64,000 nt of DNA from Adineta ricciae (Eukaryota > Rotifera > Eurotatoria > Adinetida > Adinetidae). Below are positions 1 to 34,322 of the stretch, piece after piece. Positions within the stretch are counted from its first letter, which is position 1, and each line of letters opens with the position of its first letter. The position numbers were made by a program, and so were the translations under genes. The stretch covers positions 372,001 through 436,000 of the forward strand of contig CAJNOJ010000009.1 in the NCBI GenBank assembly GCA_905250025.1. Reading direction: 5' to 3'. The notes under the pieces are model-generated. The model did no database searches. It saw only the letters and a program-made list of their open reading frames with translations, and was not told the DNA's origin.

Positions 1-203
1 AGCGCTCTGAAACTCGATTGGCTAAAAAAATAACCAATCAGAAGGCGAGTTTTTTACGAAATCTACCGTCGTACTTGACTCTGTAGAAAACTTGAGATCA
101 TTTGATTCTTCATCTTGTTGAACAAAATTGAATACTCAAAAATTCTTTCAATTAAAAAATCAATTATACCAAAGTACAACTCTTTCATTATAGATAAAAT
201 TAC

Positions 204-3200
204 ATGAAAGAGGAAGTCATGTCCGAAGAAGAACCTTCAACTTCGAATTTATTTCTCAATGAATTCCAAGATGTTTCAGCGTATAAAGATGTAAGTGATT
301 GCCTGTCGACTGAAAGCAAATGAAGAGATTATCTTTCTCGTTTAGTCTGCCTGTGCCAACGTCGTGAAATTGATTCGCTCTTCGAACGATTTATCTCGTG
401 CGAATGATCACGATTTTCTCATGAGTTTTGCACCACTTCGTCGCCGCATGGACACAGTCGCCGACAAAATCTTGCAAAAGTATGATGAAGACGTTCACAT
501 TCACATCCATATCTTTTTCTTCCTTAGTATGAGTAAAATATTGAAACAACAGAACTTACGTCGAGATTTGGGTATTACATCTTGGAAGGAAGCTGATCAT
601 GATGAAAAACTCGAGAAATTGATCGACATCAATGATGTTCTGTTTGAACGAATTGTAAAGCATCATTTTTTCACCAAATGAAGTTCTTTCAATTGATTTT
701 TGTTTAGTCTTCATCGCTTGACGAAGTAGCAGGATTGAAGAAAACGTCGACCGAAGTGAAATCGTTAAAACCATCAGTTCGAAACGTTCATGCAACATGG
801 AATAAAGAAGTAAAAAAGCATAGGAAAGCCTTTCATCAGTATTCACTCCGTCTTTAGACTGGATTCGTCTTACAAAACAATGTGTTTCCATCAAATCAAC
901 ATCACAAACAACGTTCGAATACATTCGCATCGAATCATCAGCAAACAAAGAATATTCCCAAACCTCAATTGAAATTTTCGGATAAAGTTGACAACAGTCT
1001 CTATGTGCCATTCATCACTAAACTTCGGATAAAACCGAATGCGAAAACACCCTTACCAAGTAAGATCAGATTTTCCCACTAACTATTTGTAATTAGCTAT
1101 TCTTTTTTTAAGTGGCTTTATCACAATTCGATCCTCAGACATTCAATGTGCTTCGAGTCGACGAACATCCTGAACTGTAAGCTTTTTCTCAATAGAAAAC
1201 GATTGATGAGTTTGTTTTCTTGTGTGTATCAGATTAGTTCATCCATATTTTGATGAAATCGAGACATTCGAACCAGATGAAAGTGTCCTCAAACAAGTTG
1301 AACCTCAGGTAAGAATCCCTCGATTGCATTTTCGTAGGAAAACAACGACTTGTTCGTTTAGAAACCACAACCAATAGAAGAGACGAAATACTTGTTTGTT
1401 GACACGCCGGATACGCTCAAAATTATGATGGATCACATCGAGCAACAGACTGAATTAGCAATTGATCTCGAAGTACCGATGTCTACTTATTCGAATGAAA
1501 TTTCACCCTTCGTTTCCACTTTAGCATCATTCGTATCGCTCATATCAAGGTTTCACTTGCTTATTACAAATATCTTCACGTACTGAAGATTTTCTGGTTG
1601 ATACACTTGCCTTACGTGATGAATTACACATTCTAAACAACGTTTTCACCAATCCGAATGTGTTGAAAGTAAACTTCTATTGATAAACCTCTCGAATAAT
1701 ACTGTTCAATCATAGGTTTTCCATGGTGCTGATTCGGATATTGAATGGTTACAAAAAGACTTCGGTGTTTACGTTGTCAATATGTTCGATACTCATCAAG
1801 CCGCACGAGAATTAAACTTTCAATCGTTCTCACTTGCGTATCTATTGAAATTCTATTGCGAAATCGATGCGAACAAACAATTTCAGTTAGCTGATTGGAG
1901 AATAAGGTTGGCAGGGTGTGAATCTCTTTCCTAGAAATAGTCATCTTTCTTTCATAGACCTTTACCCGAAGAGTACTGTCGCTATGCTCGAGAAGATACG
2001 CATTATCTTCTTTACATTTATGATTTATTACGAAATCGTTTGTTGGAAAAATCGACGCAATTGCTCAAATCAGTCTATGAAAAATCGAAGATTGTTTGTC
2101 AAAAGGTAATGAGTCGATTTTGTATTTCATATCGTTTGATGAGCGTTTGCAATCTTTTTAGCTATATAAAAAACCATTCTTCGATGAAAATGCCTATCAA
2201 AATATTTATATTAAGTCGCGAAAGACATTCAATGTTCGGCAATTAGCAGCATTGAAATCTCTTTACTTTTGGCGTGATAATATCGCGCGAGAACAAGATG
2301 AATCGACTGGGTATGAACAATTAGTTTTCTATTCATGATGTGTTCATATGTTTATCTCATAGATACGTATTACCCAACCATATGTTACTTCAAATCTCAG
2401 AAATTCTTCCGAGGTTTGTCATTCTCTTGTATAACACCTTAGATTAAATTTACTTCCATTTGTTTTTAGAGAACCACAAGGTATACGTGCTTGTTGCAAT
2501 CCAGTTCCAATACTTGTTCAACATAATCTACACGACATCCATCAGATCATTCTGCTTGCTCGAGATATACCTTTAAATGAAGTAGAGATTTTTCGGGAAA
2601 ACAAGAAGCTGTTTCAGCAACTTTTATCTATTCGCAGGAACAAAGAGAACAGCACATTGCACCATTGACTTTACCTGTACTATACGATCCAGAAAATGTT
2701 CTGAATTGTCCACATGATACATCGCATCAAACTGAGCAACAACAAAATATATCGAATATTAATTCAACAAAGAAAACTCATTCCAACGGTAAATTTATTA
2801 ACGAACTAGGAACATTCGTAAATATTTTGCTTCTCTTTCAAGACTTATCGTCGATTCTTGATGATACATTTCTCGAAGAATCAACAAAACGCGATGCACT
2901 AAATCTATCATCATTATTAATTCAAATTAAGAAACAGATGTTACCAATGGCAAAATCTCGATCGAACACATCGGCGAATTTGTTTGATGTGGTACATCAT
3001 CTTGCAAAGATGAATTAAATTCGAACTAATCAACATTTTTTCATTTAGTATATGCCTTCACCATATCGAACAGCTTCATTAGATAATACAAAACCATTAT
3101 GGCAAATCTACTATCCTGATCGAGATTTGTCAAGTATGCGACAATGTTAGATATAGAATCTCATCTGACTAAGCTGTCTTTTTTAGTTAATGGAAAATCA

Positions 3201-3839
3201 GTTCAACATGATAATAACAATCAAAATGGCACGAGTATTAGTAAAGAAAAGTCTAGTGACGACATCGAAATGATCATGCTTAGTAAACAGGTAAGAGAGA
3301 GAAGAGAAGTTCGATAAGACAGACAGTTGTTTGTTTCAGTCAACAGCAAAGCGAAAGCGCAAAGCTGCTGGCGATGAAAAAGTGAACAATAAGTCGAAAA
3401 ATAAGCGATATCGACGTGGTAATGTTGCTGATGAAGTACCATCGACGATTCTCCTCGACAAAGATGATGATGAGGACGATGATCAAATTGAAGAAGAAGA
3501 AGAACCAGGCGAAATATCTGATGAGATCAATGAACGAAAGCATCAAACATCATTTCAACCGTTCAATTATGACAATGAAATCCTTTCAACTAGTAAGTGA
3601 AGCCAGAAATTAGTTATAATCAATGTCTGTTTTGTTTTCATTGAAGAAAAATTCAAGAAACCTGCGGATGATGAAGATATCTACGAACCAAATCGTCCTA
3701 CAAAGTCTACAAAAGCAAGAGTAAACTATACCACATATCCCTTCTTTTCATCATAATATTTTCCATCTAGACACCAAAGCGGCCCGGTGTTCAACAAACC
3801 AACAAGTCTCTGTCCTATCCATTTCCAAAGAAGACTTGA
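204..3839 (+). CDS. EXOSC10: Exosome component 10 / Rrp6-like 3'-5' exoribonuclease (multi-exon)
   Basis: Nuclear RNA exosome catalytic subunit that trims and degrades rRNA, snoRNA and aberrant nuclear RNAs. Splicing about 20 short GT-AG introns gives roughly 860 residues, close to the family length. Order seen: N-terminal PMC2NT-type region (to about 1.08 kb), DEDD-Y exonuclease domain, HRDC domain (about 2.16-2.58 kb), then a tail with a lysine/arginine-rich patch and a long acidic run. Catalytic motifs are visible: DLE joined to HHSYRSYQG across the intron 1473-1524, [10 protein letters not shown] after 1716, and [14 protein letters not shown] after 1958. Example exons: 204-290, 346-479, 528-654, 708-809, 858-1059, 1362-1472, 1525-1668, 1716-1906, 1958-2105, 2162-2310, 2470-2581, 2638-2788. 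The ATG at 204 is in frame with a second ATG at 219; an acceptor-like TTATAG ends at 193. The start is therefore good to within five codons. Exons beyond 2.8 kb are less certain in detail. It converges on the gene at 4178. Confidence 0.93.
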
Positions 3840-4146
3840 TGTTACCTATTGTTTCTCTTTCATGTTTCGTTGTTTACTAAACAAAAAGCAGGTCGACTGC
3901 ATGGGATGCGATTTCTAGATATCTCCATGATCTAATCGATGTACTAGATATGAAATAACACCTCTGCTATTTCTAGATGTATGTATTTGATGGTCTTTCT
4001 AATCATCTCCGCTGGCAATTCTAGCGTCGATAGTTAACCTTTAAAGTGCCAGATATAACTGTAAATATTTTTTTGCGAGGTTATATTCAAACAACGTAAT
4101 CATCATTCACATGTAACGAACTCTTGCGACGAGAGATTCGTATAAT

Positions 4147-4152
4147 TTTATT
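4147..4152 (-). terminator. Polyadenylation signal for the 4178-5038 gene
   Basis: AATAAA on the minus strand 25 nt beyond the stop codon. Confidence 0.5.
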
Positions 4153-4177
4153 TTGAATATCTTCTTCCATTGTGATG

Positions 4178-5038
4178 TTAATCGAACGACGGCATTTGCC
4201 TGAATGGAAAGGAATCATTACGTGACTTCAGTTCCAAAACTGATTGAGCAGCTGCAATTATCAAAGTAAGCATCATTGAAATAATCAGAATGAATAGGAA
4301 GAAGAATAGCATTCGCCCGAGACGCATCTTGATTTGTGCGCGTTGATACTGAAGACTTTCTTGATTGACTTTAGTTTTCGATAAATCGATTAGCATCTCA
4401 CTTATAGCTGGTGGACAGAACTTGGCTGCTGCTTGCTGTGCATTTCCACGGCTAATAGCGAAAATAAACTGTCGCGTCGGAATCGAAAACGATAGATTAT
4501 CAATATCGACATGGATCATCTGTTGAGATGGAATACGTTTTAAGAATATCAGTCGACTACGGCCACTTATATCAAGAATGACACTGCTGGGTACAATGTG
4601 TGGAATAATTTTAGTCTGTTCGTTTGACATTAGTTCAGGCTCTTCGTTATTCGCTTGTCCTGATTGTTTATTGATTAGAGCAACTAGTAGAACTAGTTGT
4701 GCGCGCATGCTCTTTGGTTTATAAGCCGAACTAAGAGCCAAAATATCTGGTAAACGTTGTCGTACAATTGTCCATTTTGATACGACAGTTTCGTGTTCGT
4801 CAGCTTCGGTATTATCATAAAAAGAAAGTGTTGCTTGGGCACGACGACGACGTAATTTTACTGCATATTTCCGTTCAGTAACAGTTGATACACAATCCAC
4901 GAATGACTGTAAAGATATTTGATCGAACATTTTCATTCTGTAGTGAAATTTTTTACGTCTACTTACTGGAGAAAATGTAGAAACGTGTTGACGTCTATGT
5001 TGGTCACGGTAGGACTGCTTGAAGACATTCGTATACAT
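4178..5038 (-). CDS. Unknown C-terminally membrane-anchored protein
   Basis: I do not recognise this protein. The unspliced frame is 286 codons, but residues 25-44 are coded by a perfect 60-nt intron (4907-4966, GTAAGT donor and CTTTACAG acceptor) that is a multiple of three and stop-free. The spliced product, join(4178..4906,4967..5038), is therefore probably 266 residues. The body is soluble-looking with a basic patch (KLRRRRAQ). One hydrophobic helix near the C-terminus (MLFFFLFILIISMMLTLIIAA) is followed by about 25 residues, the layout of a tail-anchored or type II/IV membrane protein; no signal peptide is visible. A minus-strand AATAAA lies at 4147-4152, just past the stop. It converges on EXOSC10. 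That it is a coding gene is fairly secure; function unknown. Confidence 0.72.
   Translation of the reverse strand: MYTNVFKQSYRDQHRRQHVSTFSPVSRRKKFHYRMKMFDQISLQSFVDCVSTVTERKYAVKLRRRRAQATLSFYDNTEADEHETVVSKWTIVRQRLPDILALSSAYKPKSMRAQLVLLVALINKQSGQANNEEPELMSNEQTKIIPHIVPSSVILDISGRSRLIFLKRIPSQQMIHVDIDNLSFSIPTRQFIFAISRGNAQQAAAKFCPPAISEMLIDLSKTKVNQESLQYQRAQIKMRLGRMLFFFLFILIISMMLTLIIAAAQSVLELKSRNDSFPFRQMPSFD
4907..4966 (-). other. In-frame 60-nt intron inside the 4178-5038 reading frame
   Basis: Minus-strand GTAAGT donor and a pyrimidine-rich CTTTACAG acceptor bracket exactly 60 nt without a stop codon. The size matches other introns in the window. If retained it adds 20 residues (VSRRKKF... to ...QISLQ) without a frameshift. 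Confidence 0.75.
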
Positions 5039-7302
5039 GTTATGTACTTGCAGATGTTATTGAGAGTATGAATGTGAAGTAAAAGATACAATAACGATGT
5101 TAGCAGTGCAATTGGTATATAATGACATATCTAACCTTTTTGTGCATATGAAAGCGTAGGTAGTGCATCATCGATGTTCTTCTCTCATGGAATACTGAAG
5201 TTGTCCATGGACAAGTTACTTTTGTGTGTAAATATCATTGTCGAAGGAACATGACCTCATCGAAGAAACAAATCATTAGGACATATCTCTATCCGATAAA
5301 ACCTTCTGGCGAAATTCATTTTCTATTCAACAATGTGATATGTAGGAGATGATCAATATTGAATGTATGAAATCTAATCTGGATTTTTGTTTCGAGATGT
5401 GTTTTGAAATCCTACGAAGAGATTGATTTCACTAGTCAACATTTGATTTATTTTTAGTCGCAAACGAATTTAATTTCATTGTCTAATTGAGTAACGTCAC
5501 TGATGACGATGTTCCGATATGCGATGTCTTTCAGGTGAACTCATAATTTGTGTTTTTGTCAGGAAGTCGATATGATTGCTCGGCGTCATTGAAAGTGCAT
5601 GGTTTAGATTTTATCTATGGTATGTACTTTAGTTGGTGATGTCAGGAAAAAGTACATTTTACTTGGAACAATTTACTTCCAGTATTGTCCAGACGAGATC
5701 TCGATAAATCCAAGTAGCAGTAAAAGGAGACTCCAATGTCCGAGATGTTCACAAAATCTATGGCGATCAAATATCGAAGACATTTGTAATTCGTTAGACT
5801 CACCTTTCTGGTTACTATTTTTATCTCATATATTTATCAGAAATCATGTTCTTATTTCGAAGACGAATTTCTCTACACTGATTTACCTTTAATCCTATGC
5901 ACCCAGAATAGTGCTCACTTCTTGGTAGACATGCTGACACGTTGATTATCATTCTAAATATCATAAGTTGAATGGATGAGCACGCGTAGAAATATGAATT
6001 AAGCGAAGGCAAAAAAGTATGTCATGGATCAAGTTGGTAGTGAATGTAAAAGTAATTCTATTGCTAGACAAACTTGAATGTCACACGCTATCATATATCA
6101 TTAAAAGATACTAATTATGCTACGTGCTTCCAAAATGAATCATAATCTGCGCATCATTTCCCTTCGGATGGTGTTCGAGACTGTGAGATGAAACCATTCA
6201 TTTCTTTGTTACCTTTGATAATAGCGCAAACATTTGCTGTCGATCAACTCCCAGCAGTAAAGTTTACAGACATGTTGCATTAATATCGTTCCTTTTGTAT
6301 CTAATCTGTTGAGATTCGGTAATTCCACGTTGATTCTAAATTACATTTATATGTACATAACTTTCTTTGTGGAACAAATTGATCTATGAGGACATTGACA
6401 TGCTGTGTGAACTCAAGAAACCCCGTTTGTTGCTCTCACTGCTATTAGCAAACTACGCAGTCTTCAACTAATATCGAACAGTGTACGATCAAGGCTTTCC
6501 TTTCTACTTAGTTGCTAATTACTTCTCAAACAACTGTGAATAAAAGAGAAAAAAGAAATGTAATATGGCATTGAACTGAAAACGAAACAATGCGCTAAGA
6601 ATAGTCTTTTCTTCTTTACAAAGGACCGTAATTTCTTCGACAAAGATTGAAAAGAAATTGATTGGAAATGAAAATTTTTTCACTATTATTTATTGATCGC
6701 ATTCTGTATGTATGCGCACTGTTATCTATCACGTCTTGTAATCAGTCAAACAGCACGTTCTTTAAGGACAGCAAAAAAAACAACAAAAAAAGGAAAATCA
6801 ATCTATCCAACTACCTCTACAAAAGAATTTGCTTTCCATGTCGAGAATGATTGATAGTTGGAGAACAAAACCCGTTACATGTAATAGATTGTTCGTACGG
6901 AATTTGGAACAAGTACTTTCCTTCGATTGAATATCCATTTATGTATATATATATTCTTGCTTGCAAATAAAAACTAAGATGCTCTTTTTTTCCATAAATA
7001 ACTTTCACTTGAAAGTGCATTATACACGCGAGTAAAACAGAACAAAGATCGATGATGAAGAAGAAGCAGGAAATTCAAAGAAAAACATCAAACACGAGAT
7101 TTTCGCAAGAAGAAGAAAACAAACTGAATGAAGTGATTTCATACACTGAAAAAAAAGGATGAGATTGACTGTTGTCATATGCTAGATATGTTGGCACGGG
7201 GTATTAACCAATTATCACCACGCAAATGAATAGACATTCTGACGCAAGAGAAATATCAAACCGACCGGCGGTTTGGCTTTTCGTTTTGCATTCTGATTAG
7301 TT
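5039..7302. other. Non-coding spacer
   Basis: AT-rich DNA with no convincing gene. The longest plus frame (ATG at 5617, about 91 codons) has a CPRC motif but no splice partners, upstream promoter or recognisable domain. I see no RNA gene or mobile element. Confidence 0.5.
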
Positions 7303-14100: not shown

Positions 14101-14240
14101 TGATTAATGACATTTAACTGTCAGGGATTAGATAAGAATGCTAACCACAAGAAGGAATGTCGACAAGCAAGCATCTCAAGAGACAAAATCGATTAGTATT
14201 CATTAGAATTTGCTTATACCTCGTTGTTGGCTGGTACACT
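8104..14240. other. Long, mostly non-coding region with candidate 5' exons
   Basis: AT-rich DNA with purine and pyrimidine tracts, TTATTA runs (about 9421-9465) and GAA runs (about 8620-8640, 8865-8895). Minus-strand GTAAGT donors at about 8521, 10314, 12015 and 12920 suggest non-coding or short coding leader exons for the gene at 7303-8103. Frames at 11565-11798 and 13878-14117 (+) are open but show no domain. Confidence 0.45.
12921..12932 (-). CDS. Candidate first coding exon (MAKF) with consensus donor
   Basis: On the minus strand an ATG at 12932 opens ATGGCGAAATTT, followed at once by a consensus donor GTAAGTACC. Splicing to the acceptor ending at 8113 keeps frame and would give MAKFDVK followed by the 7303-8103 protein. 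This would mask the myristoylation glycine, giving two N-terminal forms. Frame agreement has a one-in-three chance of being accidental. Confidence 0.25.
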
Positions 14241-14837
14241 ATGTTTAAGAGTGAATTGCTGCTCGTTATTTTGTGTGTTGTCGTCGGAGAAATCGCTTCG
14301 AACGAACATGAACTGATTTACAATGAAGATTTTGTTTACTATGATGAATGTCGTGTTACAGTTTCACCAAGAAATTATCTTCATCCCGTACGCGCCTACA
14401 CTCAAGTACAAAAGCCATGCAATGGAACGTTACTTTGGACGTATCCGAATTTACAATTAACATTGACCGTTGTGAATCTCGAAAACGATTCATTTACGAT
14501 TTGCTTCGAGAAGAAGTCTCTTGATGATAAACTAGTTCGCTCAATTCAAGGTTTCGACGCACATACCAATCAAACACATCCTATGCGCGAATTGCAGGTG
14601 AACTCAGGGCTATTGCTTTGTTCAAATAGTCAAGGAAATCGTGTCTCAGTTGTGATTGAAGCACAACCGCTGTATGCTGGAGTACATCTACGTTACGCGA
14701 TGTTTAATGAACGTCATCCATGGACAGCAGGTCCTTTTCCTGGTTGGGAACGATCGGAAAAATATTTATATGGACCATTAGAACAGGTGCCAATCAAACA
14801 GAAGAAAGTGCGACGTAATCGAAAAAAACTTCATTAA
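14241..14837 (+). CDS. Secreted protein, probably meteorin-like
   Basis: A 198-residue single-exon product. The ATG at 14241 gives a clean signal peptide (MFKSELLLVILCVVVGEIAS); an in-frame ATG at 14157 would add 28 residues including a second hydrophobic stretch, so I prefer 14241. The mature part has the order Cys, then VQKPCNGTLLWTYP, then a beta-like stretch ending FTICF, then LLLCSNSQG followed by VVIEA. This recalls the meteorin/METRNL core (Cys-Gly, W-x-YP, Cys, QGxxxVxA), a family of secreted neurotrophic/metabolic factors. The vertebrate C-terminal cysteine-rich part is missing; instead there is a proline/tryptophan segment and a very basic tail (KQKKVRRNRKK) that might be a cleavage or matrix-binding site. 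Family assignment is by eye and tentative; secretion is likely. Confidence 0.6.
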   Translation: MFKSELLLVILCVVVGEIASNEHELIYNEDFVYYDECRVTVSPRNYLHPVRAYTQVQKPCNGTLLWTYPNLQLTLTVVNLENDSFTICFEKKSLDDKLVRSIQGFDAHTNQTHPMRELQVNSGLLLCSNSQGNRVSVVIEAQPLYAGVHLRYAMFNERHPWTAGPFPGWERSEKYLYGPLEQVPIKQKKVRRNRKKLH

Positions 14838-15352
14838 ATTGATGACAAAAATCATGAGTTTTGTTCGTTTGAAATTGCTTATCCTCACATTAGACCTGCC
14901 TAATTTTCTCCCCGGGCGAAATGAATTTTTACACTTTTTTTTCTACTCACACCAATAAGCTATTATTAGAACAGCAAGATTTGCACGGTAGGTTTGCATG
15001 CATATTCGACTAAAAATAAAACTTGATCATTTCGCGTCGTCTACTACCGACATCATTCATTCATTTTACTATTTGCTGGGCATTTATTTATATGATAGGG
15101 CACATGTTTTGCAACGCCGTAATAATGACGAAGTTTCTGACTCGAAGAGAAGGAACGCTGCCGTTCTTCGATTTGAAATTTGTGATCTGAGTCTGATGTA
15201 AATCTGACGACATTTTATCTGATATATTTCTGACACTTTAGATAAATAAACGAAAGAAATGTGATAAAGCAACTAGCAGAACAAAGTGTTTCTTCTCTCT
15301 GCTTGTTGAGTAAAACTAGATAAGAAAAAAAGAGGACACATCTGCGTTATTC

Positions 15353-16940
15353 ATGGCTAGTTCAAACTGGATCTCGGGCATTGTCGTCTGTACATTGATT
15401 GCTTCTTGTCTTTTTGTTGTTGCGGGCATTATTGGCATAGTCCTTGGACCACATATTCTGCAAAGTCAAGTCGAGAAACAATTACCACTAACAGCGGACT
15501 CCGATCAACTTGATTCATGGTCAACACCACCGGTTCCAATCTATTTACAGTTTTGGTTATGGGAATGTGTCAATGTTGGCGAAGTTCTTCGCGGTGCCAA
15601 ACCGTACGTTGTTCAACGAGGTCCGTTTACTTATTTGGAGCATCGAACGAAGACCGGTGTGTATTTCAACGATAACTATACAGTGACCTATCGCCAACCG
15701 ATTTCTTATACATTCGTGCCCGAGAAGTCGGCTCTTCCAGAAACGACTCGCATAACTATGGTCAACACCCCAATTGTAACGATTGTGGCACTACTTCGTA
15801 ACCAATCAGCTAAAACGCAAGAAATTTTTAACATTGTCAAGAACTTTTTTAATGAAACGTTGTTTATTGACCATACAGCACGTGAATGGATTTGGGGTTA
15901 TGAAGATCCTCTCTTGAAAGCAGCAAAATCACTACCAATTATCAAAGATCTAGTTCCCGATGATCATTTTGGATATTTCTACGGATCGAATGCTACAGAC
16001 GATGGCCTGTACACAGTTTTCACAGGTAGAATACAATAATTTCGAATTCTAGCATGAACGATGACAGCTATTTCTTCGGACTAGGTGAAGATCATATTAA
16101 TCAATTGAATAATATCAATAAATGGAATGGTAAATTAGTTTGTTTGCATCGTTCTAGTCCATGCGTATTCTTTTAGGTATTTCATCTTTACCCTATTGGC
16201 GAACACCTTGGGGGAATCAAATAAATGGTACTGATGGTTCATGGTTTCCTCCACTGATCGGCAAAGATCTCCAATCAATACGTCTTTACTTATATTCAAC
16301 AGATATTTGCCGTTCACTTTACGCCAAATTCGAAAAGCATTCATCTGTCTTAGATATTCCAACAGAACTCTTTTCGATTCCTGCTGAGATATTCTTAAAT
16401 TCCACTTTAAATCCCGATAATATTGCATTTGGTACTACAGATTCCGGTGTACTTGACGTGAGTGTATGCCGACAAGGTGCTCCTATCTATATTTCCTTAC
16501 CACATCTACTCTATGCTGCTGATCGATATCAAAGTCGACTTGAAGGTATTGAACCTGACGCACCAATTCATCGAACAATATTCGAAGTTGAACCACACAC
16601 AGGACTTGTATTAAGTGCACAAAAACGTTTGCAAATAAACGTCTTCCTCCAACCGGAACACTTCATTGACGATTTTAAATATATCTCCGAAGTTGTTTTA
16701 CCAGCCATATGGATCAATGAATCGACAACGATCGACCAAAAGTCAGCTGATGATCTAAATAATCAAGTTCTACGATTTTTCACCATTGTTCGATGGGTTT
16801 CCATTGTCTTAATTCCGATTGGTATAGTTATCTTCATTGTGACGATAGTTTTATTTAAGAAACATCGTTCACGAGAAGAATCAACACCATTGCTATTTGC
16901 TGAAGCGAATAATACTATTGCGTCCGATCATGACCATTAA
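15353..16940 (+). CDS. CD36/scavenger receptor class B family protein
   Basis: Cell-surface or lysosomal receptor for lipids and lipoprotein ligands (CD36, SCARB1, LIMP-2, insect SNMP/croquemort). Exons 15353-16025, 16085-16129 and 16177-16940 encode 493 residues, the normal family length. Topology is typical: N-terminal membrane helix (about residues 8-30), large glycosylated ectodomain with many N-x-S/T sites, C-terminal helix (about 455-478) and a short tail with a dileucine-like TPLLF. Family motifs: KPYVVQRGPFTY, INGTDGSWFPP, DICRSLYAKFE, GVLDVSVCRQGAPIYISLPH, EVEPHTGLVL. The TPLL motif suggests endosomal/lysosomal sorting (inference). A poly(A) signal follows at 16998. Confidence 0.96.
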
Positions 16941-25755: not shown

Positions 25756-27566
25756 ATGCCTCCTGTACCTAGCGAAACAGCAGGTTTTCAACCAAGTAAC
25801 GATGAGTCTATGTCTAACAAACTGGAATCTCTTCGTGAGAGCTCGGCTAAACGTGTGATGTCAGATATTGATCTAGACGTAAGTTGACTTTTCATACTTT
25901 TCCTATATTGTAGCCAGTAATTCATAGCGAAAATAGCTAGAGATCAGCAGAAATATGGTAGAAAAATTAAGCTTTGCGATAAAAAAGATCTCGTAGATAC
26001 CATAAAAAATGCTTCCAAAGCTCTCAGTTAAAGGGAAAATTTTGTCATTTCGTCATAGTAAATCTTCTTGAAATTTCTACGAGATATTGAGTAAAGCGTG
26101 ATGCAAATGATAGTAAGGTTATTCTCAAACAAAGGTTTTTATTTGGATATGGTTTCTTGCCCATGCATCAATACATAGGAATTATACCTCAAACAAAAAG
26201 AGAATTCTCTTGAAAAGCGGTTGAAGATGTCGCGAACGTTAAGCCCGCTTGTGATGCGATAGATAGGTTTGTCTATAAGATCGACTAGTCATGGAGTATC
26301 TTGGAAAATGTCCAGAGTGTTATTGGGAAAATTTTCAGTAGAATGAAAAAGCATAATCTATATAAAGAGCATAGATGTGTAAGGAAAGGAAGTGAATAAA
26401 CACATAACAATATCATCGCTATGATTCGTCTTCAGGTGAACTGTCGTTATTCACAATGAATCAATCAAATATCTATAGAGTAGACTAAGAAATTCTTTTT
26501 TCGATTTTAGTCTGATACTGACAAAAAAGCAATCAAACGAGAATGTCGCACGACGAATGCAACTGTATTGATACCATGTCCACTTGTAGCGCATGGCTGC
26601 TTACGTGAGGTAGCTTACGACGAGCTCGATGCACATTATTTAAGTTCAATTCATCAAGAATGTATAGCGAAAGCAATTGAGACACAAGCAAAAAAATCTA
26701 ATACTGTACCTGAATGTGTTGATTTGTTGACTGATGCTGTTTCGTGTCTACATAATGAAAATATTCAAGTTCAAAATACTGCTATAGAACTGAACCATGC
26801 GGTGACTGTATTCGGTAATCAAATTCAATCGTTAAAAAGTTCTATTGAAGAAACAAATCAATTTATGAGTGCTTCGCAAACGCAGCAGAGTTTACTACAA
26901 ACGGAAATGGAAACCATGAAAGAGAAGATAAACGAACTGAGTACTCAAGTATGCAACGATGGAACATTTATCTGGAAAATTACCGATGTTGCACAAAAAA
27001 TTAGTGATGCTATTGCTGAACGACAAACAAGTATCTACTCTCCTCCGTTCTACTCATCGAGTAATGGTTATAAAATGTGTATGAGATTGTACGTGAACGG
27101 TGATGGTCAAGCACGACGAACTCATCTTTCGCTATTCTTCGTACTACTTCGTGGTGAATATGATGCCATTTTGGATTGGCCATTCTCGTATAAAGTCACT
27201 TTTTGTCTCTTTAATCAACAAGACAAACGACATTTGATTGACTCGTTTCGACCGGATCCAAAATCAAATAGTTTCCAACGGCCAAGAACTGGGATGAATA
27301 TTGCTTCTGGCATTCCTCGCTTCTGTCCGTTGACGTCGATTCATCAGGCCAATAGTCCATACGTACGTGATGATTGCATGTTCATTCGATGTATAATCGA
27401 TTTTGGTAACATGGCGAAAACAATGATTCCTTATGTGTGCAGTCTCAATCCTGGTCTTCCAGTGAATGTACAACGATCTTTATTGCAAGCAGAAGCCGCA
27501 CGGCGCAATGAGGAAATACCGGTCACTTCGGCAGAAGAAGAAATTTCTGCGAAGAAAACAATATAA
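25756..27566 (+). CDS. TRAF-like protein: partial zinc finger, coiled coil, MATH/TRAF domain; no RING
   Basis: Two exons (25756-25878 and 26511-27566) join in phase 0 and encode 392 residues. Order: polar N-terminus, one TRAF-type zinc-finger remnant (CPLVAHGC with following His and Cys), a coiled coil (about residues 105-180), and a C-terminal MATH domain (FIWKITDVAQKI, SPPFYSSSNGYKMCMRLYVNGDG, THLSLFFVLLRGEYDAILDWPF, FCPLTSI, VRDDCMFIRCIIDF). TRAF MATH domains trimerise and bind receptor tails or MATH/BTB-type partners. Loss of the RING suggests a non-catalytic adaptor or dominant-negative-like TRAF (inference). The 632-nt intron is long for this genome. A TATA box lies upstream and AATAAA at 27705. 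Confidence 0.9.
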
Positions 27567-28094: not shown

Positions 28095-29301
28095 TCATGT
28101 TAATGAAATACTACTAACATCAGCTAAGTTCTTCATTAGCGGTAAAAATGATGAGCATGGTTGATACAGTTCTAATACATGTTGTCGACTGATAGCTAAC
28201 CATCGATTATCAGGACTCATGGCGAAAGATCGAATGAAATTATCCTGATTTGGAAAAAGTGCTAGTCTTGTAACTTGTCCATTTGCCGAGATTAAACAAT
28301 GGCCGATATTTACACAAGGAGTACACGTTTTGGCAAACCATTGTCCATTGTTATGTAAGTTCACTGGATACAAAATATTTTCATTGGTATCCATGTGAAT
28401 ACGATGGAGAAGTTGTTCGCTGTTTAAATTAACCAAATCGACCATTTGCTTCTTGCCGATTGAGATAGCAAGGGCAAGAATTTTGTTTGAATTTAATCGA
28501 ATAATTGTCACTGACAGATTTTCAATATTGGAATACGGACGAGGTGGTTCGACGAGAGACACCTTTGAAAGAGAATAACGACGAAGGTCGCAGCCGAATG
28601 AACGATTTATTAATAAATCGTCGCCGTCAACAGCCATATAGGATTTTCGAGGTCCTTCAGCAATAAACTATCGAACCGAAAAAAAGAGATTTCTCGAACT
28701 GATTTTTCTTGATTAGAATCTTACTTGAATTTGATGAATAGGAATTGGTTGTAATTGCTTCGTACCAGTTTTATATAGTTGATCAGCAGTCAGAAGAAGA
28801 AAAGCATTGAGTGTTGCCGACCAAGCGATCTCTTGAACATCTGCGCAGTTTAGTGGTAGAAGACATGTTTCAATATCCATGGTTTCTATATGAATCAATC
28901 GAAGTTGTCGGCCATCAAGTAGAAGAACGTGTGTTCGTGAAACATCAAGAATTAGACAAGATGTATCTATTTTAAATCGTTTGATCAAATAATGGTCATG
29001 TTCATCTAGTGTTTTTTCCAAACATAACGCCGTAAATGGAATTGGTAACGAAGATAACGACAGACATGTCTAAAGAATAATTATTGAATGAGCGAGACAT
29101 AAGAATGTCGTTTACTTTCTTAGTTGAAATCGATAATTTCGATGATGATAATGATTTGTTGCCAATTGGTGTTTGCTGATCGGCGATTTGTGCACGATGA
29201 ATAGAAATCTTACTTTTTAATACAATCGAACTTCCACTTGCAGTGATTTTCTTCACTGGTGATTCACGAGGAGATGATGTATGTGAATGTTTACAACCCA
29301 T
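28095..29301 (-). CDS. Unknown, putatively myristoylated protein with propeller-like repeats
   Basis: Three exons (29116-29301, 28725-29069, 28095-28667) join in phase 0 to 367 residues. The start MGCKHS is a strong myristoylation consensus with Cys3 available for palmitoylation, so plasma-membrane attachment is likely (inference). After a basic, Ser-rich linker of about 65 residues the chain shows repeated beta-type stretches of the WD40/YVTN-propeller kind: RTHVLLLDGRQLRLIHIET, EIAWSATLNAFLLLTADQLY, RSFAMSPDNRWLAISRQHVLELY. No canonical WD dipeptides are present, so the propeller reading is tentative. I know no named orthologue. It lies head-to-tail with the DDE-type gene, 381 bp away. Confidence 0.78.
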
Positions 29302-29682
29302 TGAATTTCAACGTATTCTTGTCGAAAAACGATAATTCGAATAGACAGTCCAAGTCAGAACTGATAGTAATCTCGAAGATGAACAGAATAAGAAAATCGA
29401 TTCGATACTGTATGTGTATATATAGAACTGTATGTAAACCCTGGATATAACTGTGAATCACAGTGGATAACGGGTACAATTCAAACATTTATTTTCCTAT
29501 AACATTGAAAGTTTTCCATACTGAATTTCTAGAGATAGTTACATAGTGTAGTAGTTTTCGATGAAAAAGAAAAAAACAGAACTTAAATTAGTACGACGAA
29601 GGGAAACCCATCTAAGTATCTGATACATAAGACTACAGAAAGAAGAATACACAGGCACGCACGGATGCACACGGATTAGATT
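29302..29682. other. Spacer between two minus-strand genes
   Basis: No gene, inverted repeat or target-site-duplication-like sequence noticed here; it is the 3' flank of the transposase-like gene. Confidence 0.45.
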
Positions 29683-32600
29683 CTAACGCATCTGTTTCTT
29701 TTTCTCTGCTTCTTTTCGCGCTTGTTCTTTGAGTTCGAGTTCTTCGAAGTCCGATTTTAACCAATCGAGCATATCCGAAAAAAGCACCACGCCATTCGAT
29801 GAAGGATCAGACACAGCTGGTAATGGCCGTTGACTGCTGAGCATTTCACTATCGTCTTCTTCTTCTTCTTCTTCTTCAAGTTTAATCTCCGCTTCATCCG
29901 GAAACATGTCATCGTCATACTCGAGACAGTTCGATGCATATTGTTGTTGATGAATTTTATAGTGATTCTTCATTCGATAAGCGGACGGAATATACTGTTT
30001 GCAAATCGAGCAAACGCGTCGTTTCAGTTCTTTACGTACACTGGCACAGCAATAATCGAATGGGATGATATCGTTTTGAGCACTTTGCATCACGACACCA
30101 TGAAATTGAATACGTTGAATCAATGAGCCATAGAAGACACCTTTTTGATAATCTCGATCAGCCATAGCTATACCGCGTGGTGTTCGCTCGAATGGAACTG
30201 GCGCGGGCAGAAAACGATGTGGAAATACTTGAATGTAGTTTGTTCGCCATGGACCACAACATGCGATGGAGTTACAACGAACGATTTGAATTGTGTACTG
30301 AGTTTGAAGAACATGTGTCGCGCACCAATACCTAACAGATCGAATGATTTCATTGCAATCAATCGAAAGACGGTAGTTGTCTTACTCATCAATGTCATAT
30401 TTCGGACCATCCCGTGACAATTCACCATTGGATGCTATATGTGACGATCGAGCTCTTTCCTGATAGTATTCATCGCTTTGATGCACTCGACGTTCAATGG
30501 GCTCTTCGGATTCTTCCTCATAGCAAACACTAAAAACAAACAACAACTATCATTTTAACAGAGATTTCTACTATAAAAAGTCTCACCGGTCTAAAATATG
30601 ATTCATCACTAGATTCACGTCAATCGATCGTAATTCATCTTGAGTGGATGCCGGCGGATCTATATATTCAGCAACAACGGGATATTCATCGATAATGGAT
30701 CCCCGCCAAACTTCTGCAAGAACTTCGCCAGCTTTTTTGAAATTTATTCGTTCTAGGTCGGGATTGACAGTGACACCTGAATCGTTTAAATGTGTACCGA
30801 AATGATCGTGAGGCAGAATAAGACCAGCTAAATCATGCGAAAGTGGTGCCATACGTCGTTCGACAACGTTATACGCCGATTGACCTGGTGCATGTGTCAG
30901 CACGAATAGTGCATCAAGGTTATATTTACGAAATTTTCGTATCGAAGCAACGAGTGTTTTAGGGAAACGTGGATTTTCATCAGGACCACCGTCGACAGTT
31001 ATAATAACTAGTGGCTTCACTTGTCCGGTATAATCACGTGCTGCTTTTTCAAATTCTTTCAGTCCGACGAGACGATCGAAATCACATGCATGACTATTGG
31101 CATCACTTCGGTCATGTTTGGCGGAACGAACTGCAATATAAGTTGGACCAGAGTAGCCAACATCATTATTTTCCGTCATCATGCAAGCGGCATAAACACT
31201 AAACAAAGACACGAAGAACTAAACCGTTATCTTCGTCATCAATGGTAGTTCTACCTAGGAGTTAACTGATGACGAGGAGCAACAGTCCAGTCGTGATCAG
31301 GCAAACGAACACGGTAATCCAAATGCATTAACATGGGAGCTTGTATTTTCGCGGCGGGCAAACCGATTGGTACTTTACATTTGTCATCTTGTGATAAGAA
31401 GAATACGACATCATTACCAAATATACCAGCTAAATCTTTGATATATCGAATGGTTGCTGTGGCAAAATGTCCATCTGAAATGAAAAGAAAATGCGATGAT
31501 ATTCGTTCAAGTTTGTGTTCAAACCTTCATGTTTGCTGTGTTCGTCATTTTGAGCTTTACGAAGGCGTACCGGGACGGTTCGGACATGTTTTTTACCATC
31601 AATGGAATTTGAACGATGCGGCAGTAATCTTAGAAGAAAAGAAACTTCGACACTTATGCGATAGAGTAGGACTTTTTCTTACCGATAGTAAAGTGTCGAT
31701 CGTTTGATGTCATAGCCACGTTCTTTGATTTTCTCTCGTAGATCGTCTAATGTTAAACACGGCCGAATGGTCTGCGAACGTCGGTTGTCGTCTGCAGCTC
31801 CACCAACCTTTGCAATCTCCTCGATAATCTGTAGTAAATCTGGACATTCTTCTTCAATTGGTGGTCGACCAATGATGGGCCGATAAATCTTGTTCAATTC
31901 AGCTGCAAGTTCAGGGTTTTTCTCACATAATGCTTCGATTTTACGCTAGAAAAAATAACGTACGTGAACCGGAATACTTGCACAGCGCACGTTCTGTTAC
32001 CTTTTTAATTTCACGGGCACGCTTTTTAGCTGTCTGTTCAGCTTTCAAACGTTTCAAGTCATTTGTCTTTTTCTTCTGTTCAACTAACAGTTTCTTCAAT
32101 TGTTTTTCTTGTTCACTTGTAGCCATACCCATATTTTTCACTTGGACTAGTTGAATAATACGCTCATTTATTTCATGAATTTCTTTCGAGACTTTTTCTT
32201 GAGCTGGTGCGCGTGTTTTTTTCGCGAGAATTTCAGCAGCTGTACGAATCTTTTCCGGTTTCTTTTTTGTTTGACTGTCTACTGGTTGATCTGCTGAGAT
32301 TGCTTGATCTGAGGTTTGCTCTTCAGTTCCGTTGATGATTTCATTTTCGATATCAGATGATCGTGCTCGCTTCTGACGTTTTTTCGTCGGACGACCATTA
32401 CTTTCTTGCTCACCATTGGTTTCAGCTTTCTTTTTTCGTCCGCGAGTTTTCTTCGGTGGACCGGTTTCCGAACGAGTCAAGCCACAAGCACTACTAGAGT
32501 TAAATTTTGCGAGATACTCTTCAATTTTTTCTTTCACGAGTACTTCATTTGTTTTGATTTCGTTCCATTCAGTTTGAGCAGCTGTGTGGGATAACTGAAA

Positions 32601-32741
32601 GATAGTGAGTGTATATAGAGTCATGTGTGAGCAAGAAAAGGATTTAAAACATACGCATCGTGACATTTCAGAATGGCCTTTCATGTAAGCATCAACGAAC
32701 TCGCGATACAAACAGTACCGAGGAGTTTTATGGGACGGCAT
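29683..32741 (-). CDS. DDE-type transposase-derived protein with C-terminal zinc finger (intact, 8 exons)
   Basis: Eight exons (32655-32741, 32001-32594, 31683-31945, 31525-31628, 31255-31474, 30587-31198, 30386-30529, 29683-30331) join without a stop into 890 residues. Order: N-terminal domain with WNEIK; basic AT-hook-like patches (TRGRKKK, NGRPTKKRQKR); coiled coil (about 160-227); helix-turn-helix region (TLDDLREKIKERGYDIKRS, about 290-312); a DDE-like core with D379/D380 (FFLSQDDK), D492 (VIITVDGGPDENPRF) and E536 (APGQSAYNVVERR), spaced about 112 and 43 residues; a Cys-rich patch (C694, C699, C700); a C2H2 finger (C782, C785, H798, H802); an acidic tail. From memory, similar unnamed proteins occur in cnidarians, molluscs and other invertebrates. 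No terminal inverted repeats seen. Many introns and an intact frame favour a host gene, but an active element cannot be excluded. Confidence 0.85.
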
Positions 32742-33737
32742 TTGACGAGACTAGTGAGTTAATTTAAAGTGTAGGTATGAACGTAAGATTTTTTTATGTA
32801 TGTTTAAGTATTGGTAAAAGTAAGAATGAAGGAGAAAATAGATATACTCAGAGAAGAAAAAGAAAAAGGACGTCGCAAACCGTTCGTGACCGCTCAATGA
32901 CCTCCTCCCTTCATCATTTAATGCACGTCCTATTACTAACCGCTATTTTCAACCAACCAAATATAAACGGACGGCCTATATAACACGCTCGTGTTCTATT
33001 TTCTATGTAAGAGGGCAAAGAAAAGAGTAATTATCTATTGACCGACGTCCCGGGCAACCATGTATCAATTCATTCTTGTTTCACCCGTGACCATTCGTCC
33101 TTTTTGAATGAATTGATTCCGTCAAAAAACGATTCCATGTATTTGTACCATTTCTCCCGATTCCTATTGTGGACACAAAATTGATCCGAAAGTTCTTCGT
33201 CTCATTGTATCCAATGTAGATACTTTATATGTACAAAATATCGGCATTTCAAACAAATTTTTTGTTACACGAAATAATCCATGCATCACCGTTCTCATAT
33301 TAACATTTTGTTAAAGCAAAGAACACTTATGAGTCGTACGAAAATAGTTGTTATAACGACCTCCTTCCCCATTATAAAAAAACTTTCGAAATTTCACACG
33401 AGTGTTCGAGTTCTCCAAGAACATTATATCGTTTATTGATCTAAATCGTGATCGTATTGACATTTGTAATTCAATTATACAATTAGATTTCTTATCTATT
33501 TGAGAATACATCCGAAATGATCGATTCATCTGAAATGATGTTAGAGGAAAAGAACGTTCAATAGTCAGACTAATATTGTTACTCAATTAATGGTTCGTGA
33601 TGATGTTTAGAAGCGAATCCTATTTTCGGAGAGAATCAATAGAGCATATGCGTAAATCTCTTTACGAATGTGCACTACCAACAAAAGTGGATACATTTAT
33701 TCATTTCTCAATGGAAGAAAATTAGTAATGAAAAATT
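32742..33737. other. Spacer, 5' flank of the DDE-type gene
   Basis: No supported gene. An acceptor-like CACTAG lies just before the ATG at 32741 with no obvious cis donor. The region is AT-rich, with a Lys/Arg-coding plus-strand frame near 32830-32890 that looks accidental. Confidence 0.4.
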
Positions 33738-34322
33738 TCATGTTGGCTTTAGACACAGTTTCTCACATTGCTTTTGCCTAAAAAACCGATTCGTTGATCC
33801 GCCACAGCCTGAATACGTAAATGGCACACATTGCCGATGATTAGCATCGTAAGTAAAACGTTTTATCGATCGTTTACATGAACCCTTCACAGCCATCGGT
33901 GTGTGACATTCGAATTTATCTATGAGAACAAAAGACAAACTGATTCTATGATGGATATTCATCTAGTCAACAAGTTGCATACACGGTCGTGATGGTTTTG
34001 GCAGAAGACATGTTTGTTTTGTTGCACACTGAGGAAATATACGAAATGTTTCATTTGCCGTTCGACATAAACGTGTAAAATTATTTGAGGGTAAGATTTT
34101 CGGCATACATTGATCCAATGTGAATGTTTCCTTCAAATGAGCCGGAACACACACGTGCCACAAGGCTGCGAGGCCATCAATTCCTTCATACGATATGCAG
34201 ACACCACCTATGATCGGACAACATCCACACGGACCGACAATTTGAGCATTTCGTTGACATTGAGTATTATCAATGAATCGAATCGAAAACAAGATGCATA
34301 GTACACCGAGTAATGTTTGCAT
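33738..34322 (-). CDS. Secreted cysteine-rich protein with C-terminal Kunitz domain
   Basis: Two exons (33983-34322 and 33738-33919; donor GTATGC) encode 173 residues. The ATG at 34322 gives a signal peptide (MQTLLGVLCILFSIRF). The mature N-terminal half is Cys-rich, with PCGCCPIIGGVC resembling the GCGCCxxC core of IGFBP-type domains. The C-terminal half is a canonical Kunitz/BPTI domain: FEC, GSCKRSIKRFTYDANHRQC, PFTYSGCGGSTNRF, QCEKLC, with all six cysteines. Kunitz domains usually inhibit serine proteases. The expected P1 position just after the second Kunitz cysteine is Lys (GSCKR), which would suit a trypsin-like target (inference). Confidence 0.88.

Follow-up and report, generated by a model that had tools for sequence, protein, structure and literature searches.

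A gene with seven introns and the acidic active-site residues of a DDE transposase raises the question of whether it is a mobile element, a member of a separate eukaryotic DDE superfamily or a gene that the host has put to its own use, and whether its product may still process DNA. The gene lies within the window, which is the whole 64,000-nucleotide stretch of Adineta ricciae DNA analysed here (C9:372001-436000, in an assembly of 130.5 Mb and 1033 contigs; contigs are given as C plus a number). The GC content of the window is ~36%. For Adineta ricciae, one genome paper gives 35.6% GC, a median intron of 55 and an assembly of 174.5 Mb (PMC5916493), and another gives an assembly of 135.6 Mb (PMC7943196). 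As a full explanation, we consider it likely that the window gene is a domesticated transposase of the ISAzo13/Zator type. That it is a host gene of such descent is very likely; given this descent, the residues preserved make retention of catalysis moderately probable, and any particular cellular role would be assigned with low confidence. The gene looks like a transposase put to host use because jumping seems to have stopped long ago, the protein is nearly unchanged under selection and the cutting residues are intact.

Gene structure and paralogous loci

The start ATG lies at 32741 and the stop codon at 29685-29683 on the minus strand in the spliced translation. Splicing at seven GT-AG introns, with lengths of 60, 55, 54, 50, 56, 57 and 54 bases, reproduces exactly the eight exons and the open frame of 890 residues that an earlier note on this DNA had proposed (Table 1). 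The frame is far beyond chance because homologous spliced frames, with intron positions in common, occur at 12 loci of this genome including this one, and because the core has an omega (dN/dS) of 0.02 against the nearest copy. The region in exon 2 is coiled-coil-like in our reading, which was made from the alignment by eye, and exon 3 contains a putative helix-turn-helix region that is suggested by alignment with ISAzo13. A C-terminal C2H2 finger had also been described and is confirmed, with its four ligands kept in all 12 paralogues. The AT-hook-like module listed beside it fares differently: the motif RGR(K/P)KK occurs in only three of the 12 paralogues (the window gene, C30a and C204), and an AT-hook is ruled out as a trait of the whole family.

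Table 1. Features of the window gene and of two neighbouring genes (positions within the window)
Feature	Position	Strand	Remarks
Neighbour gene exon	28095..28667	minus	Best other copy C30:39091, 57%, one internal stop; sole further match 27%
Whole gene, ATG to stop, 8 exons, 890 aa	29683..32741	minus	Spliced frame
Exon 1, aa 1-29	32655..32741	minus	Phase-0 intron behind it in 12/12 paralogue models
Exon 2, aa 30-227	32001..32594	minus	Basic, variable stretch with AT-hook-like motif, then coiled-coil-like region
Exon 3, aa 228-315	31683..31945	minus	Helix-turn-helix-like region, aligns with ISAzo13
Exon 4, aa 315-350	31525..31628	minus	Spliced frame
Exon 5, aa 350-423	31255..31474	minus	Carries first putative catalytic Asp
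Exon 6, aa 423-627	30587..31198	minus	Carries second Asp and Glu
Exon 7, aa 627-675	30386..30529	minus	Phase-2 intron ahead of it in 12/12 models
Exon 8, aa 675-890	29683..30331	minus	Cysteine-bearing C-terminal part, C2H2 finger, acidic tail
D379 codon	31386..31388	minus	Aligns with first catalytic Asp of ISAzo13 (VDTKKK); invariant 12/12
D492 codon (VDGGPDENP)	30991..30993	minus	Invariant in 12/12 paralogues
E536 codon (NVVERR)	30859..30861	minus	Invariant in 12/12 paralogues
C2H2 zinc finger, C782-x2-C785-x12-H798-x3-H802	29950..30012	minus	Four ligands in 12/12
Neighbour gene, EF-hand and PLAT domains	61977..~62987	minus	Best other copy C30:50991, 68%; next match 26%

A genome search with the conserved part of the window protein recovered at least 12 loci and one distant relative on C188 (28% identity); locus counts from this search are lower bounds. 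The loci are distributed over C9 (the window gene), C30 (at 86 kb, here C30a, and at 140 kb), C1, C108, C47, C162 (two), C204, C273 and C534 (two). Spliced models were built for all 12 by a purpose-written splice-aware alignment. Introns at residue 29 (phase 0) and residue 627 (phase 2) are present in every model; those at 315 (phase 2), 350 (phase 1) and 675 (phase 2) are present in eight, and the one at 423 (phase 2) in seven. The remaining four loci (C204, C273 and the C534 pair) have introns at 229, 526 and 760, and the intron at 229 is perhaps the same as that at 227 in C9 and C30a. Other introns, each confined to a single group, sit in poorly aligned ends and are less certain. Stops seen in the first search become introns in the spliced models, and the idea that intron-poor copies are retrocopies or pseudogenes was rejected. 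Coding sequences are fully open at 10 of the 12 loci. One possible frameshift each in C273 and in the second C162 copy (C162b) may be real or may reflect assembly or alignment error.

The protein tree separates group A (C9 and C30a; support 98/100), group B (C204, C273 and both C534 loci; 88/100) and groups C-E, which comprise the remaining loci (84/81); six of its 10 inner branches reach the strict support mark. A group A member and a group C member lie 54 kb apart on C30. The two C162 members lie 58 kb apart on the same strand and are 94% identical across ~4.7 kb, with similarity that stops inside the 3' part of the gene. Nine of the 12 family loci are on contigs numbered 204 or lower, compared with four of 44 DDE_3 (mariner-type) matches among the matches listed; contig numbers seem to track contig size.

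Relationship to ISAzo13, Zator and mariner transposases

Pfam profiles give only chance-like matches to the window protein (best E 0.04, below cut-off), and the profile of the bacterial ISAzo13 family, PF07592, gives no match to the 890 residues up to E 5. The sequence comparisons suggest that the family connects to the ISAzo13/Zator type only via a bridging relative, the C188 protein. A search of the genome with PF07592 returned one match, an exon on C188 with 25.4 bits against a cut-off of 26.9, and the same exon also matches the window protein. The C188 protein, which was joined by hand from three open stretches with approximate boundaries, reaches E 7.4e-8 and 32.2 bits against this profile, which is above the 26.9 cut-off. 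In profile comparisons, the six proteins of groups A and B hit C188 across 299 columns (E 1.4e-14). A query of the two groups plus C188 aligns with eight ISAzo13 proteins (E 6.5e-8, probability 94.6%) over 246 colinear columns that extend from the helix-turn-helix region to the Glu; here D379 falls on VDTKKK, and D492 and E536 fall on the second Asp and the Glu, respectively. The ISAzo13 match is weak when C188 is left out (E 0.0026 for groups A and B, 0.011 for all 12 paralogues), and C188 alone matches the ISAzo13 profile with E 0.00099 over 25 columns only. Because ISAzo13 and mariner profiles also resemble one another at the helix-turn-helix (E 4.2e-6), similarity there is not specific.

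Controls were made against 49 single proteins. With C188 in the query, 10 ISAzo13 entries occupy ranks 1-10 (E 4.5e-5 to 0.033), and 39 control proteins (31 plasmid-borne and eight mariner) begin at E 0.04. These 10 entries represent eight distinct proteins because two of them, L040 and L041, repeat genes already present as L028 and L022. With the 12 paralogues as query and C188 omitted, nine of the 10 entries take ranks 1-9 (E 0.012-0.076) and the tenth falls outside the best 16 of 49. Forty column-shuffled ISAzo13 alignments give a best E of 0.085, and the reversed alignment gives 0.16. Eight mariner proteins encoded in the same genome gave at best E 0.0055, across 48 columns that lie outside the DDE part, and no mariner or IS630 similarity was found across the DDE domain (best E 0.04 for single mariners and 0.089 for IS630). 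The ISAzo13 proteins were fished from plasmid records with a bait sequence; six of the eight records are annotated as ISAzo13 family, and L024 and L027 were assigned by similarity only.

The C188 gene lies within a 7,047-bp stretch (C188:59575-66621, equal to 76-7122 of record L021) with GGGAG...CTCCC ends and inverted repeats of 92 bp at 84% and 55 bp at 89%. TTA occurs on both outer sides and is 3 bp long, as expected of Zator/ISAzo13. It is a possible target duplication, and a 3-bp match alone could be due to chance. The transposase gene occupies three open stretches and was found once in the genome; by eye, the C-terminal end of its product has a stretch with cysteines and a finger resembling C2H2, for which Pfam zf-C2H2_3 stays below cut-off (E 0.025). 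From these features C188 looks like a Zator element. In two papers, Zator is paired with ISAzo13 and both have 3-bp target duplications (PMC10045372, PMC5718144).

If the family were a eukaryotic DDE superfamily of its own, with a likeness to ISAzo13/Zator confined to the active site, this would account for the absence of a Pfam match to the window protein, for the weakness of the direct profile match without C188 and for the C-terminal zinc-binding part, which was not seen by eye in ISAzo13 proteins. We regard it as quite unlikely, since the 246 colinear columns (E 6.5e-8) include the region ahead of the active site, the 10 ISAzo13 entries outrank the other 39 of the 49 proteins, and C188 both matches the family over 299 columns and passes the PF07592 cut-off. 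The suggestion in the earlier note of an unusual, unnamed DDE superfamily is less likely, as the family links to the known ISAzo13/Zator type, if only through C188. Like ISAzo13, the window protein would have a helix-turn-helix followed by D, D and E, with 43 residues between D492 and E536 compared with 42 in ISAzo13 L022 (counted by hand). Unlike ISAzo13 proteins, it lacks a PF07592 match, carries further regions at its N-terminus (long and coiled-coil-like) and its C-terminus (zinc-binding), and is encoded by a gene with introns, at which the search for inverted repeats found none. The likeness to Zator, judged from the published description, comes through C188 with its PF07592-type protein, inverted repeats and possible 3-bp duplication, whereas the window gene, at which no terminal inverted repeats were found, does not look like a transposon.

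No relatives were found in viral contigs (queries: exon 6, the paralogue alignment A1 and the C188 exon), in bacterial and archaeal genomes (alignment A1) or on plasmids (exon 6 and the C188 exon), and a comparison of the 589-aa conserved part with PDB sequences gave no match up to E 10. These results are silent on spread among animals because the collections are not animal genomes. Unnamed animal proteins of similar look presumably exist, in cnidarians among others.

Terminal repeats, selection and genomic surroundings

A test for inverted repeats, blind to very short ones and positive on C188, was negative for the window gene with a 2.5-kb flank on each side and for each of the 12 loci in flanks of 1.3-2.5 kb. 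This result agrees with the earlier impression that terminal inverted repeats are lacking. Three weak inverted pairs (18-20 nt, 75-79%) span the window gene (region 28600-34200; 25 of 30 pairs of at least 12 bases) and were rejected as transposon ends because they are chance-like.

Selection on the window gene is purifying. Compared with C30a, the core has dN 0.040, dS 1.94 and omega 0.021, and omega is 0.019 for the C-terminal part, 0.087 for the N-terminal part and 0.054 for the whole frame; these omega values are approximate because dS is saturated. Five other paralogue pairs have whole-frame omega of 0.127-0.167 (the C162 pair was omitted for its frameshift). The only pairs with >90% DNA identity are C1/C108, the C162 pair and the C534 pair, and in each the similarity runs into at least one flank; they are therefore copies of segments. 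Values of dS are 0.133 for C1/C108 and 0.110 for the C534 pair. Mean Ks values published for Adineta ricciae are 0.14 for homologues and 1.27 for ohnologues (PMC5916493); the dS of both pairs is like the former, and the other kind of copy, with dS well over 1, fits the latter. The copy number of at least 12 loci comes without recent dispersed copies.

DNA similarity between the window gene and C30a is confined to the gene (6.0 and 7.5 kb were compared), and translated stretches of the window outside the gene have no match in the 1.3-2.5-kb flanks of the other loci, including C30a, which speaks against a duplicated block. Conserved surroundings within this genome were found on a larger scale: two of three tested neighbours have their best second copy on the contig of the closest paralogue (Table 1), at 39 and 51 kb of C30 with C30a at 86 kb, in an order that differs from that of the window. 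No second copy of the third gene, at 14145-14834, was found in the genome search. Because the second copies of two of the three neighbours are on C30, C9 and C30 look like an old pair of duplicated blocks with shuffled order. Ordinary animal genes also occur around the window gene, namely a CD36 family member (15320-16036), a TRAF-type MATH domain (26511-27563) and a Kunitz domain (33738-33962). Telomere-type TGTGGG repeats are no commoner than in a control.

These observations bear on the possibility that the gene is a mobile, or only recently immobile, ISAzo13/Zator-type transposon with ends that were missed. Kinship with the apparent element C188 in the same genome, at least 12 dispersed loci and the blindness of the tests to very short inverted repeats are compatible with it. 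Its probability is nevertheless very small: old paralogues have intron positions in common, the inverted-repeat test was negative throughout the 12 loci (flanks of 1.3-2.5 kb), dS to the closest copy is near saturation, and second copies of two neighbours lie on the contig of that copy. The proposal of a domesticated gene is favoured by the same absence of detected inverted repeats, by the shared introns, the duplicated block and an omega of 0.02, and by the lack of recent dispersed copies.

Active site and possible use in the host

The active site had been described as an ordered triad of D379/D380-D492-E536. D379, D492 and E536 stand, whereas D380 does not: position 380 is D in only six of the 12 paralogues, R in three, N in two and T in one. 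D379, D492 and E536, together with the ligands C782, C785, H798 and H802, are invariant in the alignment of all 12. The triad acids are also present in the distant relative C188, and conservation of the triad among homologues therefore held throughout the copies of this genome. In six paralogues most of the GGPDENP behind D492 has changed, with D492 itself kept. Preservation of the triad while adjacent residues change would be the pattern expected of selection for catalysis; the residues may instead be kept for a structural need. Conservation is highest in residues 676-810 (61 of 135 positions invariant), followed by the DDE part at 371-545 (53 of 175), and falls to 16 of 89 in residues 161-249 and one of 100 in residues 61-160. 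A fold prediction of exon 6 alone, rather than of the full protein, has a mean pLDDT of 41, too low for the model to serve as evidence on an RNase H fold.

The chief alternative is domestication for DNA binding only. The product would then be a catalytically idle regulator or chromatin protein that acts through its helix-turn-helix and zinc-binding parts, and the triad would serve to stabilise the fold. In favour of this reading are the stronger conservation of the C-terminal part relative to the DDE part and the break-up of VDGGPDENP in half of the paralogues. The three acids are kept in all 12 copies, including the six with changed adjacent residues, and the DDE-bearing core has an omega of 0.021 between the window gene and C30a, both of which speak against it. 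We hold it to be possible, with less than even chances.

For the preferred reading, a domesticated ISAzo13/Zator-type transposase, the following history is proposed. An ISAzo13/Zator-type DDE transposase gene would have become fixed as a host gene before the duplication behind the paired blocks of this genome; with introns that it already had or acquired, it would have increased to at least 12 loci. The protein is predicted to be nuclear, to use its helix-turn-helix and C-terminal zinc finger for DNA binding and to associate with itself through the coiled-coil-like region. A metal-dependent DDE site may have been kept that is able to nick or join DNA and that may now be used on host DNA or against related elements, no longer moving its own gene. 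Roles in DNA repair, in the control of related elements and in gene regulation are compatible with the evidence, which does not choose between them. A stronger version, in which the whole family consists of active DNA-cutting host enzymes, with an ISAzo13/Zator transposase turned nuclease or DNA-joining factor, is improbable. If true, it would imply action in, for example, DNA rearrangement, break handling or control of related elements, and paralogue groups that diverged in target with the active site kept, in a rotifer that is probably asexual and desiccation-tolerant.

Domesticated DDE transposases are a known kind, of which RAG1 and the piggyBac-derived genes are examples, and domesticated transposases are a source of new DNA-processing enzymes in animals. 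The window gene resembles these and the pogo-derived genes (PMC7386202) as a fixed, selected host gene that comes from a cut-and-paste transposase. It is unlike domesticated DDE transposases generally in its apparent origin from the ISAzo13/Zator side, in its family of at least 12 loci and in a triad that is intact in the 12 examined. No tamed Zator or ISAzo13 gene is announced in the literature titles and abstract openings that were covered, a coverage outside which most subscription papers fall. Pfam does not recognise this family, which has expanded to at least 12 loci and has all of its catalytic residues preserved. Its presence in one genome with C188, an apparent true element, provides a natural pair for understanding what domestication changed. 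The C188 element has two more open frames on the minus strand (L021 445-816 and 1315-1728, 123 and 137 aa), neither with a Pfam match above cut-off, and its end sequence occurs again at C755:23839-23930, where it is 80% identical.
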